Shown here: piece by piece, positions 4,121 through 10,664 of the stretch
Layout: every line of letters starts with the position of its first letter
Numbering within the stretch: position 1 is the stretch's first letter
NCBI GenBank assembly: GCA_002729275.1
Contig: PBTP01000003.1
Coordinates: 1-10,664 of the forward strand
From: Roseibacillus sp.
GTDB taxonomy: Bacteria > Verrucomicrobiota > Verrucomicrobiia > Verrucomicrobiales > Akkermansiaceae
Reading direction: 5' to 3'
DNA length: 10,664 nucleotides
Notes under the pieces: model-generated
The model's database searches: none
Told to the model about the DNA's origin: nothing
Seen by the model: only the letters and a program-made list of their open reading frames with translations
Position numbers and translations under genes: made by a program

Positions 4121-4669
4121 ATGGGCGAATTATGGTCTCGCACCTACCAAACCGTGTACGGAATGATCTATGATCCAAAACTCATTCTAGTTTGCGGACT
4201 CGACAATGCTGGCAAAACATGTTTGCTGAACCGACTCCAAGGCATCGAACGCAACACAGTGCCCACCCTAGGGTTCAACGCAGAGACGCTGCAATTGGGG
4301 TACGCCACCGTACAAGTGTTCGACACCTGCGGACAACAAACACGACGCGACAGCTGGAGCATGTTCTTCCATCACGCCCACGCCCTGGTGTACGTCGTCG
4401 ACTCCAACGACATCGAACGTATCTACGAAGCAGGCACGGAACTGCAAAAAATCCTCAACCATGAAAACTTTCCGGACGTGCCGGTGCTAATTCTCGCCAA
4501 CAAACAGGACCACCCGCGCGCCGCTACACCAGCACAAGTCATGCGCGGGATGCGACTGCAGCGCGAGACACGTCCCTGGCGCGTGGCGGGCACGGTGGTG
4601 AAGACTGGGGAGGGGATTGACGAACCACTGAAATGGCTGGTCGACCAGATGTGGCAAACACGTACTTGA
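4121..4669 (+). CDS. ARF/ARL-family small GTPase, 182 aa, probably N-myristoylated
   Basis: The protein is collinear with ARF1 with a one-residue offset. Gly2 (MGELWS) fits N-myristoylation. The P-loop GLDNAGKT is at 26-33, switch I Thr at 49 (PTLGFN), switch II D68-T-C-G71-Q72 with the catalytic Gln kept, and NKQD at 127-130. ARF proteins recruit coats and lipid-modifying enzymes to Golgi, endosomal or plasma membranes when GTP-bound. Two deviations stand out. The usual WDVGGQ motif reads FDTCGQQ. The G5 motif (CAT in ARF1) reads VVK followed by TGEG, closer to the SAK of Ras. It should bind nucleotide, but exchange-factor and effector specificity may differ. An AATAAA lies 29 nt after the stop, antisense to the convergent transporter gene. 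Family assignment is firm; role in infection is inferred. Confidence 0.93.
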   Translation: MGELWSRTYQTVYGMIYDPKLILVCGLDNAGKTCLLNRLQGIERNTVPTLGFNAETLQLGYATVQVFDTCGQQTRRDSWSMFFHHAHALVYVVDSNDIERIYEAGTELQKILNHENFPDVPVLILANKQDHPRAATPAQVMRGMRLQRETRPWRVAGTVVKTGEGIDEPLKWLVDQMWQTRT

Positions 4670-4895: not shown

Positions 4896-4956
4896 TAAAC
4901 CATATTCACATAATATATATAATCAGACTATAACCATCTGTCATATGCCTTCAAAT
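4896..4956. promoter_or_regulatory. Divergent promoter region with TATATATA and TATAACCAT
   Basis: The region between the transporter (minus, ATG 4895) and the BspA-like gene (plus) contains TAATATATATAAT (4911-4923), facing the minus gene, and TATAACCAT (4929-4937). The second box ends 19 nt before ATG 4957 but only 7 nt before ATG 4945. By the spacing seen at other genes here, 4957 is the better start for the plus gene. Confidence 0.5.
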
Positions 4957-5577
4957 ATGCGGGTCGTCCTTGCATGTCTCATGCTCAGCAGTGCATACGG
5001 ATTCTCACCCGCGTCCAAGTCTGACTTGGAAGACGCCTTGGACGAATGTTGTCGAAACGGTGACAATGTAGACCTCATGGGTACCTTTAACAACGACTGC
5101 AGAGTCGACAGCCAAGGCACGTACGACACGGACGGGGACCACATAGGCGATTGGGACACATCGCTTGTCACCGACATGTCGTTCGTCTTCAAACGGGCAG
5201 AAGTGTGTTTTGAAACCATGAACGCCAACGTCACCTACTGGAACACGTCCAGCGTCACCACCATGGAAAGCACGTTCAAAGACGCAACACTGTTCAACCA
5301 ACCGCTCCAGTGGGACGTCTCCAAAGTCACGTCCATGGACTACATGTTCAACGGCGCCACGCTCTTCAACCAACCGCTGGACTGGAACACCAGTCATGTC
5401 ACCAACAAGGATTTCATGTTCAGCAAGTTTTCAAGTCGTGTGAACAGCATGGACGACTGGAACACGTTCGCCACCCAAGAATGCGACCTCACACGTTCCA
5501 GCCACGAAGCGCTGCGAGACGAAATCACCAAGTCTGGAAGAGCACCCGCCTACCAAATGGCTGGGTTGTGCGTATAA
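4957..5577 (+). CDS. Secreted BspA-like (DUF285-type) repeat protein, 206 aa
   Basis: From ATG 4957 the protein begins with a signal peptide (MRVVLACLMLSSAYG). A Cys-containing stretch follows, then about five units of a 24-25-residue repeat: W-(D/N)-T-S-x-V-T-x-M-x3-F-x2-A-x2-F-N-Q-P-L. This is the BspA-type leucine-rich-like repeat (PF03382/DUF285) found on surface proteins of bacteria and protists and often multiplied in giant viruses. Units begin near the Trp codons at 5152, 5239, 5311, 5383 and 5458. N-glycosylation sites (NVT, NTS) fit passage through the secretory pathway. No membrane anchor follows, so secretion or a loosely bound virion or surface role is likely; adhesion is inferred from relatives. 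An earlier in-frame ATG at 4945 would add four residues but sits too close to the promoter box. Confidence 0.82.
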   Translation: MRVVLACLMLSSAYGFSPASKSDLEDALDECCRNGDNVDLMGTFNNDCRVDSQGTYDTDGDHIGDWDTSLVTDMSFVFKRAEVCFETMNANVTYWNTSSVTTMESTFKDATLFNQPLQWDVSKVTSMDYMFNGATLFNQPLDWNTSHVTNKDFMFSKFSSRVNSMDDWNTFATQECDLTRSSHEALRDEITKSGRAPAYQMAGLCV

Positions 5578-5840: not shown

Positions 5841-6122
5841 ATGTTGTACGCCACTCTCTTCACCTGGGCACATCTCCACAACATCTCTGACCCCGCCCTA
5901 CTCAAAACGACCGTGCAACAGTACGTGGAACACTTTCCCTGCGAAGAGTGCCGAGAACACTTTGCCACACTGGTCGAACACCACCCCATCCAACTTGAAC
6001 ACGTGCGCACGCCAGAAGACGTTCAGATTTGGTCGTGGCTCACCCACAACCTAGTCAACCAGAGACTTGGCAAGCCGTGGTATTCTGCAGGGGAAGAGTA
6101 TAACTTCCCCGACTGCCTCTAG
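5841..6122 (+). CDS. Erv1/Alr-family FAD-linked sulfhydryl oxidase, 93 aa
   Basis: Residues 9-13 (WAHLH) match the first helix of the family, CEEC (34-37) is the redox-active C-x-x-C next to FAD, and W64-S-W66-L-T-H69-N70-L-V-N73-x2-LGKP is the diagnostic FAD-binding block. These enzymes make disulphides with O2 as acceptor. In poxviruses (E10R), ASFV and other giant viruses they drive a virus-encoded disulphide pathway for virion proteins in the cytoplasm. At 93 residues it is a minimal domain with a short N-terminus and no shuttle-cysteine extension, apart from C92 near the end. The start follows TATAACCC by 20 nt. It sits beside several Cys-rich or secreted genes, but a direct link is only a suggestion. 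Confidence 0.9.
   Translation: MLYATLFTWAHLHNISDPALLKTTVQQYVEHFPCEECREHFATLVEHHPIQLEHVRTPEDVQIWSWLTHNLVNQRLGKPWYSAGEEYNFPDCL
6099..6106 (+). promoter_or_regulatory. TATAACTT box upstream of the FYVE-kinase gene
   Basis: TATAACTT lies inside the last codons of the thiol oxidase gene, 19 nt before ATG 6126. It matches the recurring box and spacing, which implies the kinase gene has its own promoter. Confidence 0.4.
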
Positions 6123-6125
6123 TAT

Positions 6126-7904
6126 ATGAATATAGCACCAAGATTGCCACACCCCTGGGTGAACGATCTGCACGTGGACACATGTTACGCGTGCCAAGCC
6201 ACCTTCACCCTCTGGAACCGCAAACACCACTGCCGCATGTGTGGACGCATCTTCTGCCACCTCTGCACACCCTACCAAGGCTCCATCCCCTCCTACATGC
6301 AGACCTACCCCTCCCACGACAACGTACGCTTATGCAAACACTGCCACACGCTGTGCTCCCAGTCCAAACAATCCGACACACTCATCCGCATCCTCTCTCT
6401 TGTTGGACTCGACCCACAAGACATGTGCCGCCTCGCCTGTCTCTCCCGCAGCTGGAAACACGCCACCAGCACCGTCATGAGCGTCTACAAAGGCATCCCC
6501 TACAAACTCTCCCACGCCCGCTACTCCTCGCTCGAACGCAATATCATGAAATCCAGACAACACACCTTCGCCGGACACACCTGCTGGGCGATCCAGTGCG
6601 CCCGCATCAACCTCCGCCTCCAAGGAAAACGCAGATACTCGTGCAGACAACTCATGTGCTCCCAAGACTGTTGTGAACAATTAGAACCAAGACATGTACT
6701 CCAACTGCTATGCACCTTTCCCGCCGTCCACATCCTCCAGAACCCACGCCTAAGAGACTGGATCCGTAACCGCTTCCGACGTCTCGACACGGACACACAC
6801 GTACTCTTCATGCCCTGGTGGACCATGCTCGCCAAAACCTCCAAAGTCTTCGCCACACAGTTCCTGCTGCCAGTGTGCTCCGACCACAAACGCATCGCCT
6901 ACGCACTCTACTTTGAGTGCGAGACCGAAATCTCGGACACACTCGTCAAACTGCAACGGCTGCTCGTCGCACGCATCTGCAAAGGCTGGGGCGCCGAACT
7001 ACGACAGACCAAACGACTCATCCAGTACGTTGACGAACTCATCCAAGGCACGCGCACCGAGTGCCCCGTACGACCACAGTACACCATCCCCATGCCCTAC
7101 AACCCAGAGATCCTGTGCACCGGCGTCGGCTCGCCGAAACAACTGACCAGTGCCACCAAACCCCATGTGGTTCCACTGCAGACCTCCAAAGGCAGCCTGC
7201 ACATTCTGGTCAAACACGAAGACGTTCGCAAAGACCGCTACGCCATGGTCGTCGCAAACATGCTGCACAAACTCTGCGGCGTACGTTGCGTTCACTACGA
7301 CGTCTTCTGCATGCGCAGGCGAGGCTGGGTCGTCATGCTGCCGGCGCTCACACTCCACTCGCTCGGAAACCGTCTCAGTGCACACATCTACAACACCTAC
7401 AGAGACGCCTGCGTCCAAGATATCCGCAACAAGTTCATCGCCTCCACCGTAGGCGCCTGCATCCTGTCCTTCATCCTCGGCGTAGGCGACCGCCACCTCC
7501 AAAACATCGTTGTGAGCCGCGGAGAAATCGCACACATCGACTTTAGCTATTTGTTGGGACACGACCCCAAACTCAGCATCGACATCCGCATCACACAAAG
7601 CATGATCGACATGATGGGAGGCAAAGAATCGCCCGACTACCAACGCTTCCTCACCCTCGTCCAAGACGCCTACAACCAAAGCCGCAAGTACACACAATTC
7701 TGGTTCACCTCCATGCAGTACATGTGCGACATCGAACTCTACACGCTCAAAGACATCAAAGAACACGTCTGCAGAAAACTCATGCCAGGGCAACTCGAAA
7801 GCACCGCAGCCACACGCATCGTAGAAGTCGTCAAACACGGCAGCGACTCCTGGAGACACACCGTCTCAGACGTTACACACAACCTATTCCATCTGGAACT
7901 GTAG
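6126..7904 (+). CDS. FYVE - F-box-like - PI3-kinase (Vps34-like) fusion protein, 592 aa
   Basis: Residues 11-73 are a complete FYVE finger: W11-V-N-D14, C20-x2-C23, the R-K-H-H-C-R block at 32-37, C39, C44, C47, then R68-L-C70-x2-C73. All eight zinc ligands and the PI3P-contacting basic block are kept. Residues 84-114 resemble an F-box (LIRILSLVGLDPQDMCRLAC then SRSW), a weaker call. A helical middle region follows. The C-terminal kinase domain has the ATP-site K363 (LVKHEDVRKD), catalytic loop GVGDRHLQN with D455, R456 and N460, and IDF with D472. The activation segment (LGHDPK, then MIDMMGG) is close to Vps34, the class III enzyme that makes PI3P. No Vps34 C2 domain is visible. The kinase therefore appears active and able to bind its own product on endosomes. 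TATAACTT precedes the start by 19 nt. Domain calls are firm; lipid specificity is inferred. Confidence 0.92.
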   Translation: MNIAPRLPHPWVNDLHVDTCYACQATFTLWNRKHHCRMCGRIFCHLCTPYQGSIPSYMQTYPSHDNVRLCKHCHTLCSQSKQSDTLIRILSLVGLDPQDMCRLACLSRSWKHATSTVMSVYKGIPYKLSHARYSSLERNIMKSRQHTFAGHTCWAIQCARINLRLQGKRRYSCRQLMCSQDCCEQLEPRHVLQLLCTFPAVHILQNPRLRDWIRNRFRRLDTDTHVLFMPWWTMLAKTSKVFATQFLLPVCSDHKRIAYALYFECETEISDTLVKLQRLLVARICKGWGAELRQTKRLIQYVDELIQGTRTECPVRPQYTIPMPYNPEILCTGVGSPKQLTSATKPHVVPLQTSKGSLHILVKHEDVRKDRYAMVVANMLHKLCGVRCVHYDVFCMRRRGWVVMLPALTLHSLGNRLSAHIYNTYRDACVQDIRNKFIASTVGACILSFILGVGDRHLQNIVVSRGEIAHIDFSYLLGHDPKLSIDIRITQSMIDMMGGKESPDYQRFLTLVQDAYNQSRKYTQFWFTSMQYMCDIELYTLKDIKEHVCRKLMPGQLESTAATRIVEVVKHGSDSWRHTVSDVTHNLFHLEL

Positions 7905-8415: not shown

Positions 8416-8608
8416 TAAAGGTATACACTAATTTTGGGTCCTTAAGCCGGTCTACGAATGTCCGCAACGCCGCCGCCCACGCCCAACCATAATCCCGTTG
8501 CGCCTGCCTTTTCACATTACGCGCAAACAGTCTACGCTCTCGTTCGTCACGAGGATGCAACTTTGGATGTCCAGCTAGTGCCAAATACGTCAACATGGCT
8601 GGCGTCAT
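8405..8608 (-). CDS. Small basic hypothetical protein, 67 aa
   Basis: Minus-strand frame starting MTPAMLTYLALAGHP, followed by a basic helical body (DERERRLFARNVKRQAQRD, then FVDRLKDPKL). No family is recognised; the charge pattern would suit a nucleic-acid-binding or packaging protein, but this is only composition. Support comes from a TATAAATA box (8627-8634 on this strand) 18 nt before the ATG. Its end overlaps the EF-hand gene by 11 nt, tail to tail. It contains one copy of a 19-nt direct repeat also found in the next plus-strand gene. Confidence 0.5.
   Translation of the reverse strand: MTPAMLTYLALAGHPKLHPRDERERRLFARNVKRQAQRDYGWAWAAALRTFVDRLKDPKLVYTFITM
8471..8489 (+). repeat. 19-nt direct repeat, copy 1 of 2
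   Basis: CGCCGCCCACGCCCAACCA occurs exactly here and again at 8739-8757, 268 nt away, in the same orientation but within genes read on opposite strands. Flanking bases differ. It may be a recombination scar or chance in a C-rich context. Confidence 0.6.
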
Positions 8609-8703: not shown

Positions 8704-9487
8704 ATGGACGTCACCTCGAAAGAATGGAAATCGCTTTTCGCCGCCCACGCCCAACCACATATCACAAGAGGAGTGGGAGAAAATGTGCAACATTGACCCG
8801 TTTTTGGCGAAGAACGGCTTCCGCGAGACGCCCGACCCGGAAGCCTCTGAAAGACTACTGGACCTGTTGCACGTGTACAACGAGTACCACAATGATGTGT
8901 ACTTCCCCATGGTGCACCCGCTAGAATGCCAGTCCATCACGTTCTTAACGAGTCGTGAAGTCCCGTTCGACCTCAACGCGTACATTCTGGAAATGTTGGA
9001 CGCGGATCCAAGTACGATTCAGTATATCGATGTATGGAAAATCCCGAGGGAGTTTCGGAAAAAGATGGCACACGTGGTCCTTCGGCGCACATCGGACGCG
9101 TTCTCCGTCGTGCACGGTAAACCGTGGGAAATGGATGTGCAAGATTTGGACGAAGATGAAATGCGCAACCCGTTGTGCCATTTCAAGATGTTGCTCAACG
9201 ACAAGGATTTCGTGCTCAACGTAGAGGACGAGTACCACACGTTAGATGCCATCTTGGACCACTGCCCGCTGCTCTTCGACCCTGACGTGTGTGCAAAGTG
9301 GTTGGATTGCTGGGATGACGACGAGTTTTACCTTGTCGCAGGGTATTTGAATATTCAGAAGAAATGTCCACCCATGGACGCCGAAACCTGCAAGCATTAT
9401 TTGGAGGGATTGGAAGAGGGGCGCGACGGCTATGACTATACACACGCGAAGCAATTGCTGCGCGAACGACTTGCCGTGATCACCTAA
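8704..9487 (+). pseudogene. Acidic hypothetical protein with a probable frameshift near its start
   Basis: The main open part runs from ATG 8783 to TAA 9487 (234 aa). It is an acidic helical protein rich in Asp, Leu, His and Cys (LDEDEMRNPLCHFKMLLNDKD, DCWDDDEFYLVAGYL), not recognised; a loose likeness to DUF4116-type helical repeats is not convincing. In the same frame coding character extends upstream of 8783 (HISQEEWEKM) without an ATG. A better start, CCCATGG at 8704, lies 18 nt after an AT-rich TAATATTG but in another frame that stops at 8796. Removing one T from the TTTT at 8735-8738 joins both into about 260 residues. So either the gene is frameshifted (error or real mutation), or translation begins at 8783 without a clear promoter. 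The 19-nt repeat copy 2 lies in this 5' part. Confidence 0.6.
8739..8757 (+). repeat. 19-nt direct repeat, copy 2 of 2
   Basis: Second exact copy of CGCCGCCCACGCCCAACCA (first at 8471-8489), located in the disputed 5' part of the acidic gene, just after the TTTT run. Confidence 0.6.
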
Positions 9488-9497
9488 CTACTTCATA

Positions 9498-9513
9498 CAA
9501 AAATCATTTTTTG
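9498..9513. terminator. AT-rich hairpin between the acidic gene and the WD40 gene
   Basis: CAAAAA and TTTTTG form a 6-bp stem with the 4-nt loop TCAT, starting 10 nt after the stop at 9487. It may mark the transcript end; the stem is weak and could be chance in AT-rich sequence. Confidence 0.3.
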
Positions 9514-9515
9514 AC

Positions 9516-9524
9516 TATAACCTT
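9516..9524 (+). promoter_or_regulatory. TATAACCTT box upstream of the WD40 gene
   Basis: TATAACCT is followed by about 20 nt and the ATG at 9545; a second TATAAAA lies at 9536-9542 just before the start. The box matches those of typical viral genes here, although the downstream coding sequence has a very different base composition. Confidence 0.5.
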
Positions 9525-9544
9525 TGTGATATTCTTATAAAAGA

Positions 9545-10664
9545 ATGGCACTGCTAAAGCTATTGTATGGGCACACGGATCCCGTGAACTCGGTGTCGTT
9601 TTCTCCCGACGGCGCGCGCATCGTGTCCGGGTCGGACGACAAGACCGTACGGGTGTGGGACGCCGTGACGGGACAGTGCGTGCTGGGTCCGCTCGAGGAG
9701 CCGCAGCCCGTGATATCGGTGTCGTTTTCTCCCGACGGCGTGCGCATCGTGTCCGGGTCGTTCGACAACACCGTGCGGGTGTGGGACGCCGTGTCGGGGC
9801 AGTGCGTGCTGGGTCCGCTCGAGGGGCACACGGGTTTCGTGATGTCGGTGTTGTTTTCTCCCGACGGAAAGCGCATCGTGTCGGGATCGGAAGACGAGAC
9901 CGTGCGGGTGTGGAACGCCGTGTCGGGGCAGTGCGTGGTGCTCGAGGGGCACACGGGTCGCGTGTGGTCGGTGTCGTTTTCTCCCGACGGAAAGCGCATC
10001 GTGTCCGGGTCGGACGACAACACCGTGCGGGTGTGGGACACCGTGTCGGGGCGGTGCGCGGTGCTCGAGGGGCACACGGATTGGGTGCTGTCGGTGTCGT
10101 TTTCTCCCGACGGCGCGCACATCGTGTCCGGGTCGAGGGACAACACCGTGCGGGTGTGGGACGCCGTGTCGGGGCAGTGCGCGGTGCTCACGGGGCACAC
10201 GGGTCCCGTGAGGTCGGTGTCGTTTTTTCCCGACAGCGCGCGCATCATGTCCGGGTCGTCGGACAACACCGTGCGGGTGTGGGACGCCGTGCCGTGGCAG
10301 TGCGTGCTGGGTCCGCTCGAGGGGCACACGGGTTACGTGGAGTCGGTGTCGTTGTCTCCCGACGGAAAGCGCATCGTGTCGGGATCGGAAGACAACTCCG
10401 TGCGGGTGTGGGACGCCGTGTCGGGGCAGTGCGTGCTGGATCCGCTCGAGGGGCACACGGGTCGCGTGACCTCGGTGTCGTTTTCTCCCGACGGCGCGCG
10501 CATCGTGTCCGGGTCGTGGGACAAGACCGTGCGGGTGTGGGACGCCGTGTCGGGGCAGTGCGTGCTGGATCCGCTCGAGGGGCACACGAGAGACGTGACC
10601 TCGGTGTCGTTTTCTCCCGACGGAAAGCGCATCGTGTCCGGGTCGTGGGACAAGACCGTGCGGG
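9545..10664 (+). CDS. WD40 repeat protein, at least nine near-identical repeats, 3' end outside the window
   Basis: The frame is open from ATG 9545 to the right edge (373 codons, no stop). After eight residues (MALLKLLY) the protein is entirely WD40 units of 41-43 residues, beginning GHT, with the core SVSFSPDG, RIVSGS and TVRVWDAVSGQC. Units start at 9569, 9698, 9824, 9947, 10070, 10193, 10322, 10451 and 10580. Unit 2 begins EPQP in place of GHT and is one residue shorter. Differences between units concentrate at GHT-xx-V-x-S and SGS-x-D-x. WD40 propellers bind proteins or peptides; this style of nearly identical repeats is typical of fungal NLR (HET-E/HET-D) and bacterial NTPase-WD40 proteins. 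No NACHT, kinase or effector domain is present here, though one could follow outside the window. GC-rich codons (GTG, TCG, GGG, CGC) differ from the other genes, suggesting acquisition from another genome. Minus-strand open frames here are shadows. Confidence 0.93.
   Translation, partial: MALLKLLYGHTDPVNSVSFSPDGARIVSGSDDKTVRVWDAVTGQCVLGPLEEPQPVISVSFSPDGVRIVSGSFDNTVRVWDAVSGQCVLGPLEGHTGFVMSVLFSPDGKRIVSGSEDETVRVWNAVSGQCVVLEGHTGRVWSVSFSPDGKRIVSGSDDNTVRVWDTVSGRCAVLEGHTDWVLSVSFSPDGAHIVSGSRDNTVRVWDAVSGQCAVLTGHTGPVRSVSFFPDSARIMSGSSDNTVRVWDAVPWQCVLGPLEGHTGYVESVSLSPDGKRIVSGSEDNSVRVWDAVSGQCVLDPLEGHTGRVTSVSFSPDGARIVSGSWDKTVRVWDAVSGQCVLDPLEGHTRDVTSVSFSPDGKRIVSGSWDKTVR
9569..10664 (+). repeat. Tandem array of 123-129-bp WD40-coding repeats
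   Basis: Nine head-to-tail units, the last cut by the window edge. Two length classes alternate irregularly: 129 bp where the linker reads VLGPLE or VLDPLE (unit 2 is 126 bp), and 123 bp where it reads VVLE, AVLE or AVLT. Units 3 and 7 share synonymous bases not found in the others, and units 8 and 9 share both variable pairs, so the array has been shuffled by recombination. Confidence 0.9.

Follow-up and report, generated by a model that had tools for sequence, protein, structure and literature searches.

Hypervariable WD40 arrays in probable mirusvirus-like viruses as candidate recognition proteins

The DNA analysed here, a 10,664-bp stretch that we call the window, is the entire contig C136 of a prokaryote MAG (3.67 Mb, 143 contigs). 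It ends within an array of WD40 units that are nearly alike in framework and differ from each other at a few residues. An earlier note, made from the sequence alone, placed these residues at positions known from fungal NLRs and proposed that they form an evolving binding surface. The locus thus raises the questions of where the gene comes from, whether the residues were diversified by selection or have drifted, and what such a protein might bind. We consider it rather probable that the product of this gene serves a mirusvirus-like virus as an intracellular recognition protein under diversifying selection, in which WD40 propellers are followed by a BspA-type LRR domain.

The WD40 gene across two contigs

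The array is located in an ORF that begins at 9545 and runs open to the contig end. Nine stretches of this ORF match PF00400 (1.7e-117, above the curated cut-off), confirming the nine units that the earlier note had described at 9569..10664; the tandem repeat in the window has a period of 129 nt and 8.7 copies. The features of this region are listed below, with the hypervariable residues of each unit.

8783..9487, + strand: 234-aa ORF directly upstream of the WD40 gene, 93-94% identical to one of two tandem genes in viral record G002
9545..10664, + strand: 5' part of the WD40 gene (373 aa), running off the contig; the rest lies on C137 (L011, minus strand from 8201)
9569..9694, + strand: WD40 unit 1, D,P / N / D / K
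9695..9823, + strand: WD40 unit 2, QP / I / F / N; GHT lost
9824..9946, + strand: WD40 unit 3, GF / M / E / E
9947..10069, + strand: WD40 unit 4, GR / W / D / N
10070..10192, + strand: WD40 unit 5, DW / L / R / N
10193..10321, + strand: WD40 unit 6, GP / R / S / N
10322..10450, + strand: WD40 unit 7, GY / E / E / N
10451..10579, + strand: WD40 unit 8, GR / T / W / K
10580..10664, + strand: WD40 unit 9, 5' part, RD / T / W / K; remainder on C137
10609..10664, + strand: site where the assembly breaks within the array; the same 56 bases open reverse-complemented C137

Contig C137 (8,201 bp), when reverse-complemented, opens with the last 56 bases of the window and continues within unit 9. It adds four intact units, one unit that is degenerate by eye, and a BspA-type LRR domain; PF00400 matches five stretches (2.4e-63, above the curated cut-off), LRR_5 matches with 2.9e-25, and the protein ends in GQIKLRL. 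Over the two contigs the gene therefore has at least 13 intact units and one degenerate unit, if nothing collapsed at the break. We are unsure of the number and order of the units because the short-read assembly breaks within the array; according to the available part of PMC12222747, WD40 arrays of this kind are not reconstructed accurately in Illumina assemblies. The 120 listed relatives of the LRR part (of 6,176) are LRR proteins with 30-47% identity, none of them listed with a WD40 accession, so that no allele of the whole gene was found. RPB2 cluster P0121 (11 member sequences) is 100% identical to the RPB2 of C137, and its longest contig (17,442 bp, longer than C137) may hold the other end of the array.

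Unit 1 begins at residue 9 of the ORF, and the eight residues before it contain no signal-like or membrane segment. No NACHT (STAND) ATPase domain was found ahead of the array in the window, although an upstream exon may have escaped notice. Neither a catalytic domain nor a RING finger was recognised in the WD40 gene among the best 25 of 49 Pfam families listed for the window and the best 25 of 43 for C137. The sole PADLOC match, to the HEAT-ARM_XIII model, is to the WD40-like part of that model. The TATA-box-like string GTTCCTATAAATAGGC precedes two C137 genes (a 175-aa ORF and the patatin; L011 reverse complement near 4507 and 5088). Another TATA-like string, in front of the WD40 gene, was dropped, as it lies only 2 nt from the ATG.

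A single-sequence AlphaFold2 model of the nine-unit part (pLDDT 91.0, pTM 0.85) forms one ring, cut off by the contig end, that fits eight-bladed propellers best. The best Foldseek match by E-value is PDB 2ymu (4.0e-37), which we take to be a double propeller from Nostoc. Thirteen intact units and a degenerate one would be compatible with two seven-bladed propellers, barring collapsed or misordered units.

Origin of the contigs

Among the best 25 of 49 Pfam families listed, the genes of the window are not bacterial in kind.

2243-2536: RING-variant protein (Pfam)
4121-4669: ARF-family GTPase (Pfam)
4945-5577: DUF285 protein (Pfam)
5841-6122: Erv1/Alr protein (Pfam)
6126-7904: FYVE and PI3/PI4-kinase protein (Pfam)

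The last of these also reaches 22.7 bits with an F-box-like model, below the cut-off of 24.3, and a scan of the viral records confirmed none with a FYVE/PI3K gene. C137 carries, besides the end of the WD40 gene, an RPB2 of 1,009 aa (PF00562, 2e-104), a patatin-like protein and a DUF285 protein. The RPB2 is 60% identical to those of the IMG/VR records G001, G003 and G005, 43% to that of G004 and 34-35% to those of G006 and G007. In a tree of 27 RPB2 rows, C137 falls with G001, G003, G004 and G005 in a clade of 13 (support 100/100), apart from the eight cellular rows. G006 and G007 form a separate clade, nearer to the cellular rows under midpoint rooting, where the root is not fixed; the RPB2 tree alone therefore does not prove a single viral clade.

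The 234-aa ORF, with its 93-94% identity to a G002 gene, ties the window to the virus of G002. It has no Pfam match among the best 25 of 49 families listed. G002 contains two tandem copies of this gene (L110:8026-8865 and 8902-9843; 93-94% and 61-73% identical), as well as two tandem WD40 genes, which argues for local duplication in the gene family. The window copy seems shortened at its N-terminus when judged against the longer G002 homologues. An exact 19-base direct repeat lies at 8471-8489 and 8739-8757 of the window, the second copy directly preceding the ORF; at the site of this second copy the reading frame differs in the longer G002 homologues.

A terminase of the phage/herpesvirus type is encoded in G002 (L109:17640-19475) in two stretches, 44% and 47% identical to the terminase of G006. 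In the gap between them lie two GTAAGT and several YAG sites, which would fit spliceosomal introns; such signals were not seen in the window itself. The terminase of G006 is intact (589 aa) and matches PF03237 (1.8e-7), phrog_2 (1.8e-15), gp17 in the PDB (2.5e-5) and a herpesvirus terminase (0.0027). G006 thus carries both terminase and RPB2, and the terminase is absent from the fragments G001, G003, G004, G005 and G007. Neither the G006 terminase nor DNA polymerase B finds a match in the MAG, so that C136 and C137 probably strayed into it from a virus, although a negative result says little when only a few contigs are contaminants. In the same MAG, G000:C25 and G000:C81 have equal-scoring WD40 matches at matching spacing, in ORFs that are both 1,156 aa long, and are possibly duplicated contigs.

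The virus is one of microscopic eukaryotes and probably a mirusvirus; we call it mirusvirus-like. As far as the available text of PMC10132985 and PMC12768974 goes, Mirusviricota are described with a terminase, a eukaryotic-type RNA polymerase, patatin and Evr1/Alr. Our contigs resemble them in the RNApolB on C137 and in the patatin-like and Evr1/Alr proteins, and the related records in the terminase of G002, interrupted by GTAAGT...AG stretches, and in the combination of terminase and RPB2 in G006. They differ in that the MAG has no terminase or DNA polymerase B match.

Variation between units and in control arrays

We numbered the units from the G of GHT and scored 31 codons in 13 units; the nine units of the window were also scored alone. 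Counted from the invariant Val and Asp, the variable codons 4, 5, 7, 23 and 25 are HET-E positions 11, 12, 14, 30 and 32. Entropy across the 13 units is 2.87-2.93 bits at codons 5, 7 and 23, 1.88 at codon 4 and 1.61 at codon 25, and the five-residue combination differs in all 13 units. In 9/9 units of the structural model, codons 4, 5, 23 and 25 lie outside strands, and codon 7 lies in the strand that follows the first loop. In WD40 propellers the d-a and b-c loops of the blades lie together on the top face. The variable codons all fall in two loop regions that share one face in WD40 propellers; whether they do so was a check that the earlier note had proposed.

Both the residues listed by that note and their 42-residue HET-E numbering were right: they match the Podospora positions in the available part of PMC12222747, where units are classified by positions 10, 11, 12, 14, 30, 32 and 39. 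The sites are also those under positive selection in the accessible part of Paoletti et al. (PMC1805685), namely codons 7, 9, 25 and 27, each pair of which flanks an invariant site; in our numbering, codons 5, 7, 23 and 25 stand in the same way on either side of the invariant Val and Asp. HET-E positions 10 and 39 are near-constant here (T in 12/13 units and A in 11/12). Codon 16 (A/K/V), absent from the earlier note, has an entropy of 1.31 bits and alternates between K and A from unit 7 to unit 13, which suggests that the array grew by two-unit steps.

Mean framework nucleotide identity between units is 0.939 over 75 nt (the HET-E/HNWD criterion is >80%). To call the framework almost invariant was slightly generous, since unit 2 reads EEPQP for GHT and the 13 units show one or more amino-acid changes at 16 of the 26 framework codons within the first 31; these changes are mostly confined to a single unit. 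In units 4, 9 and 11 all 78 framework bases are identical, while 6-11 of the 15 hypervariable bases differ pairwise.

With all 13 units scored, the five codons have a pN of 0.568, against 0.059 for the framework, whose pS is 0.072. The closeness of the two framework values looks like a framework that is homogenised or young rather than strongly purified. The ratio of pN at the five codons to framework pS is 7.7 (bootstrap over units 5.3-14.4), 13.9 after Jukes-Cantor correction and 7.9 with the nine window units alone. The variation is thus non-synonymous at the named codons and not evenly spread, with 67% of all non-synonymous differences at these five codons. Only 3 of 169,911 sets of five among the 31 codons, the observed set included, reach the observed pN; the same holds for the nine window units alone, and the outcome is unchanged when the odd unit 2 is left out. 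By pN/pS and by this set test, the residues flanking the invariant Val and Asp show a pattern of diversifying selection, between units and not between alleles. Aromatic residues make up 10/39 of the residues at codons 5, 7 and 23, an excess over random codons (P 0.0033 against random NNS codons; 0.0009 under another model). Where two units share a residue at a variable site (Trp and Met left out), 64/65 pairs use one codon, which points to unit copying and argues against free third-base drift or blind hypermutation.

To place these values, we drew control arrays from a prokaryote collection in which 374/390 pattern-matched stretches encode relatives. Of the 80 loci taken from the 374 relatives, 70 have at least five units and give, with the window, G001 and G002, 73 scored arrays; 13 of 85 loci, ten of them among the 80 prokaryote loci, have fewer than five units and were left unscored. 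Control units were drawn from both strands of a locus, so that arrays may be mixed. The window ranks first of 73 in pN(five)/pS(framework), with 7.7 against a median of 1.1, followed by L084 (6.7), L058 (5.5), L046 (5.4), L050 (5.3) and the viral G002 (4.7, rank 6) and G001 (4.7, rank 7). A contrast near that of the window, with ratios of 4.2-6.7, is seen in L084 and L085 (Methanobrevibacter MAG), L058 and L050 (cyanobacteria) and L046 of the prokaryote collection. In the 65 arrays with at least six units (64 prokaryotic and G002), mean entropy is highest at codons 23, 5, 7, 4 and 25. The variable sites therefore mark the generic top face of WD40 propellers and not NLRs, and the earlier note's description of the positions as NLR-type did not hold. 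As the same codons vary in the control arrays, the pattern alone does not tell function. What distinguishes the window is the strength of the contrast between the codons and a framework with little difference; the kind of array is itself known.

An ordinary young repeat array, in which the top-face sites are least constrained and drift freely with no selection for diversity, would account for the same sites being most variable in the 65 scored arrays, and arrays of this kind are common, as the 374/390 stretches show. However, relaxed constraint alone cannot lift change above the neutral rate, and the five codons have a pN several times framework pS even at the lower bootstrap bound. Homogenisation without selection should also erase variants that lie one codon from the invariant Val and Asp, and the shared codons of same-residue pairs show no free third-base drift. 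We regard drift as rather unlikely, and diversifying selection remains our preferred reading.

The closest known parallel is found in HET-D/HET-E (HNWD/NWD) of Podospora anserina, here compared through the literature (PMC1805685, PMC12222747). The arrays are alike in their high internal unit conservation, in variation that flanks an invariant Val and Asp, in the many combinations (13/13 units here, 55 among 69 in Podospora), in a size that would suit a double propeller whose last blade diverges, and in the failure of short-read assembly. In a published model (PMC12222747), HET-E forms two seven-bladed propellers whose variable sites face HET-C. In contrast, the viral gene has no NACHT or HET domain and has a C-terminal LRR_5 (RING or other parts in relatives), and positions 10 and 39 hardly vary in its array. 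Prokaryotes, too, have highly repetitive WD40 proteins (e.g. the Gimesia gene at L016; 2ymu), which share the unit type and the variable codons; some have a high framework identity (ratios of 3.5 for L016 and 6.7 for L084). The Gimesia protein differs in being encoded by one 1,340-aa gene with a P-loop-like motif, seen by eye, before the array, whereas the viral gene has only a short start before its first unit and closes with LRR_5 and the [LF]R[LF] end.

Viral relatives, possible functions and C-terminal ends

PF00400 matches three of 14 viral records (G001, G002 and G005), many of the rest being fragments. G001 has one WD40 gene with 7 units, and in G002 a gene with 7 units and one with 4 lie side by side. 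Three are present in G005: one, truncated at the record end, retains two units followed by a RING finger (PF13639, 3e-9) and the C-terminus LRLRF; a 698-aa protein has about seven blades and a C-terminal part with His and Cys motifs (by eye), ending in NVSFRF; and the third protein is divergent (463 aa). The C-terminal part of the 698-aa protein matches NCBIfam NF047832 with an E of 0.036 (13.6 bits against a cut-off of 140), and has no match in Pfam (E up to 1) or the PDB (E up to 10). The His and Cys motifs were read against the motif shapes of CHAT/caspase proteins, and this part is perhaps caspase-like, which we treat as a lead. The relatives' arrays have similar units but different unit numbers, variable residues and C-terminal parts; related viruses thus carry different arrays, and the single fixed array that would have spoken against the earlier note was not observed.

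As no signal-like start is present and a relative carries a RING finger, the protein probably works in the cytosol or nucleus. In the intracellular recognition protein that we favour, recombination between units would keep the framework alike and add or remove units, while selection would keep the top-face residues diverse because they bind a changing partner, which could be a protein of the host, one of its immune sensors or a competing virus. The C-terminal part would decide the outcome: ubiquitin transfer with a RING finger, perhaps cleavage with a caspase-like part. Instead of the end domain, another protein bound to it could also act on the target. The LRR_5 of the window gene may be a second binding module, for which sequestering or scaffolding is the simplest guess. 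Unlike the WD40 substrate receptors of ubiquitin ligases (Fbw7, Cdc4), the window's WD40 gene has no RING or F-box.

Alternatively, the protein could mimic the sensor of NLR-like proteins of the host and act as a decoy or antagonist, soaking up the ligand or jamming non-self recognition. In a protein database, 7,941/7,994 scored candidates match the window units. The 120 matches listed reach identities of up to 61% and come from fungal, bacterial and unnamed metagenome sources, so that they point to no single origin of the array; megablast against phage records gave no match. A decoy would fit the resemblance of the units to fungal NLR-like proteins among these 120 (e.g. Serendipita, 61% over 65% of the query, and two Rhizoctonia proteins named HET-E-1) and the lack of a NACHT domain before the array. 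However, the listed matches are spread over fungi, bacteria and unnamed metagenome proteins. By framework similarity the nearest arrays are the other viral ones (G002 0.93, G001 0.90), then the Gimesia gene (0.88) and two unnamed proteins (0.86 and 0.85), and fusions to RING and LRR parts are unexpected for a plain decoy, which we judge unlikely.

Hypervariable binding surfaces are typical of viral receptor-binding and fibre proteins. A receptor-binding propeller, which the earlier note had suggested, could sit on the virion and set host range; this would also suit the LRR and DUF285 proteins that adjoin the gene. Nothing supports such a role, and it is quite improbable for a protein whose first unit begins at residue 9 with no signal-like or membrane segment before it, and in a relative of which a RING finger indicates an intracellular function.

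Targeted hypermutation, for example by a diversity-generating retroelement, would explain why change is limited to a few codons of an otherwise identical frame. Diversity-generating retroelements have an adenine bias, whereas here all three codon positions vary with no adenine-only pattern; same-residue pairs share their codons, and no second array that could be a template repeat was found within the window. We consider it highly improbable that the variable codons were written in this way. That the assembly stitched together units of several strains or loci is scarcely credible as the source of the variation: the contig does break in the array, the 63 nt of framework between the variable codons of neighbouring units exceed the 56-base overlap, and short reads do not resolve such arrays (PMC12222747, available part), but the variable codons of each unit lie within 66 nt, so that single units are mostly safe, and three other viral records show the same kind of array. 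The order and number of the window's units may still be wrong.

WD40 arrays of high internal conservation are known already in fungal NLRs and bacteria. As far as the papers show, their presence in mirusvirus-like viruses, with changing end domains and a common C-terminal end, is new in the literature searched. WD40 arrays are not mentioned in the available main text of PMC10132985 and PMC12768974, no paper found joins 'mirusvir' with 'WD40' or 'WD repeat', and searches for WD40 with giant viruses and for viral decoys returned nothing on the present system. Diversified top-face WD40 arrays read non-self in fungal NLRs. If our reading is true, viruses of protists would rely on the kind of rapidly evolving recognition device that the immune systems facing them also use, with a signature on the virus side at least as strong as in fungal NLRs and a sensor joined to different output domains. 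This would offer a testable way into the question of what mirusviruses recognise in hosts about which little is known.

The WD40 proteins that have a stop codon in the available DNA all end in [LF]R[LF] (7/7; LR[LF] in 6/7), although their last domains are unrelated. The LR[LF] end is found on 11 of 150 ORFs of at least 100 aa (window, C137, G001, G002 and G003), where the internal frequency predicts 0.10. By record the end occurs in 4/50 ORFs of G001, 6/61 of G002 (the overlap filter omits its second WD40 gene, which was counted separately by hand) and 6/115 of G005, and in 0/21 of G003, 0/54 of G004, 1/76 of G006 and 1/92 of G007. In 34 homologous pairs across G001, G002 and G005, the end is present in both members of 4 pairs, in neither of 30 and in only one of 0; all four double-end pairs are WD40 pairs, so that this evidence comes from one family. 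Other proteins with the end include a protein kinase, an LRR protein (ending VRL), a second kinase and a chromodomain protein. The ORFs with the end include the following, and others.

L011:6740-8200 (C137)
L009:9950-10948
L010:9959-11323
L010:11364-12215
L152:11663-12262
L141:34-2130
L147:10357-11748

The [LF]R[LF] end looks like a putative sorting or packaging signal of the lineage. One possible extension, which we offer tentatively, is that a lineage of mirusviruses maintains a rapidly evolving family of modular receptor-effector proteins, each an NLR-like sensor without NACHT, in which a hypervariable WD40 propeller reads a changing protein of the host or a rival virus, interchangeable RING, caspase-like or LRR parts act on that protein, and the common end directs every member to a single destination, for example the virion or a compartment made by the virus. 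The end itself may be an unrecorded sorting signal of this virus group.
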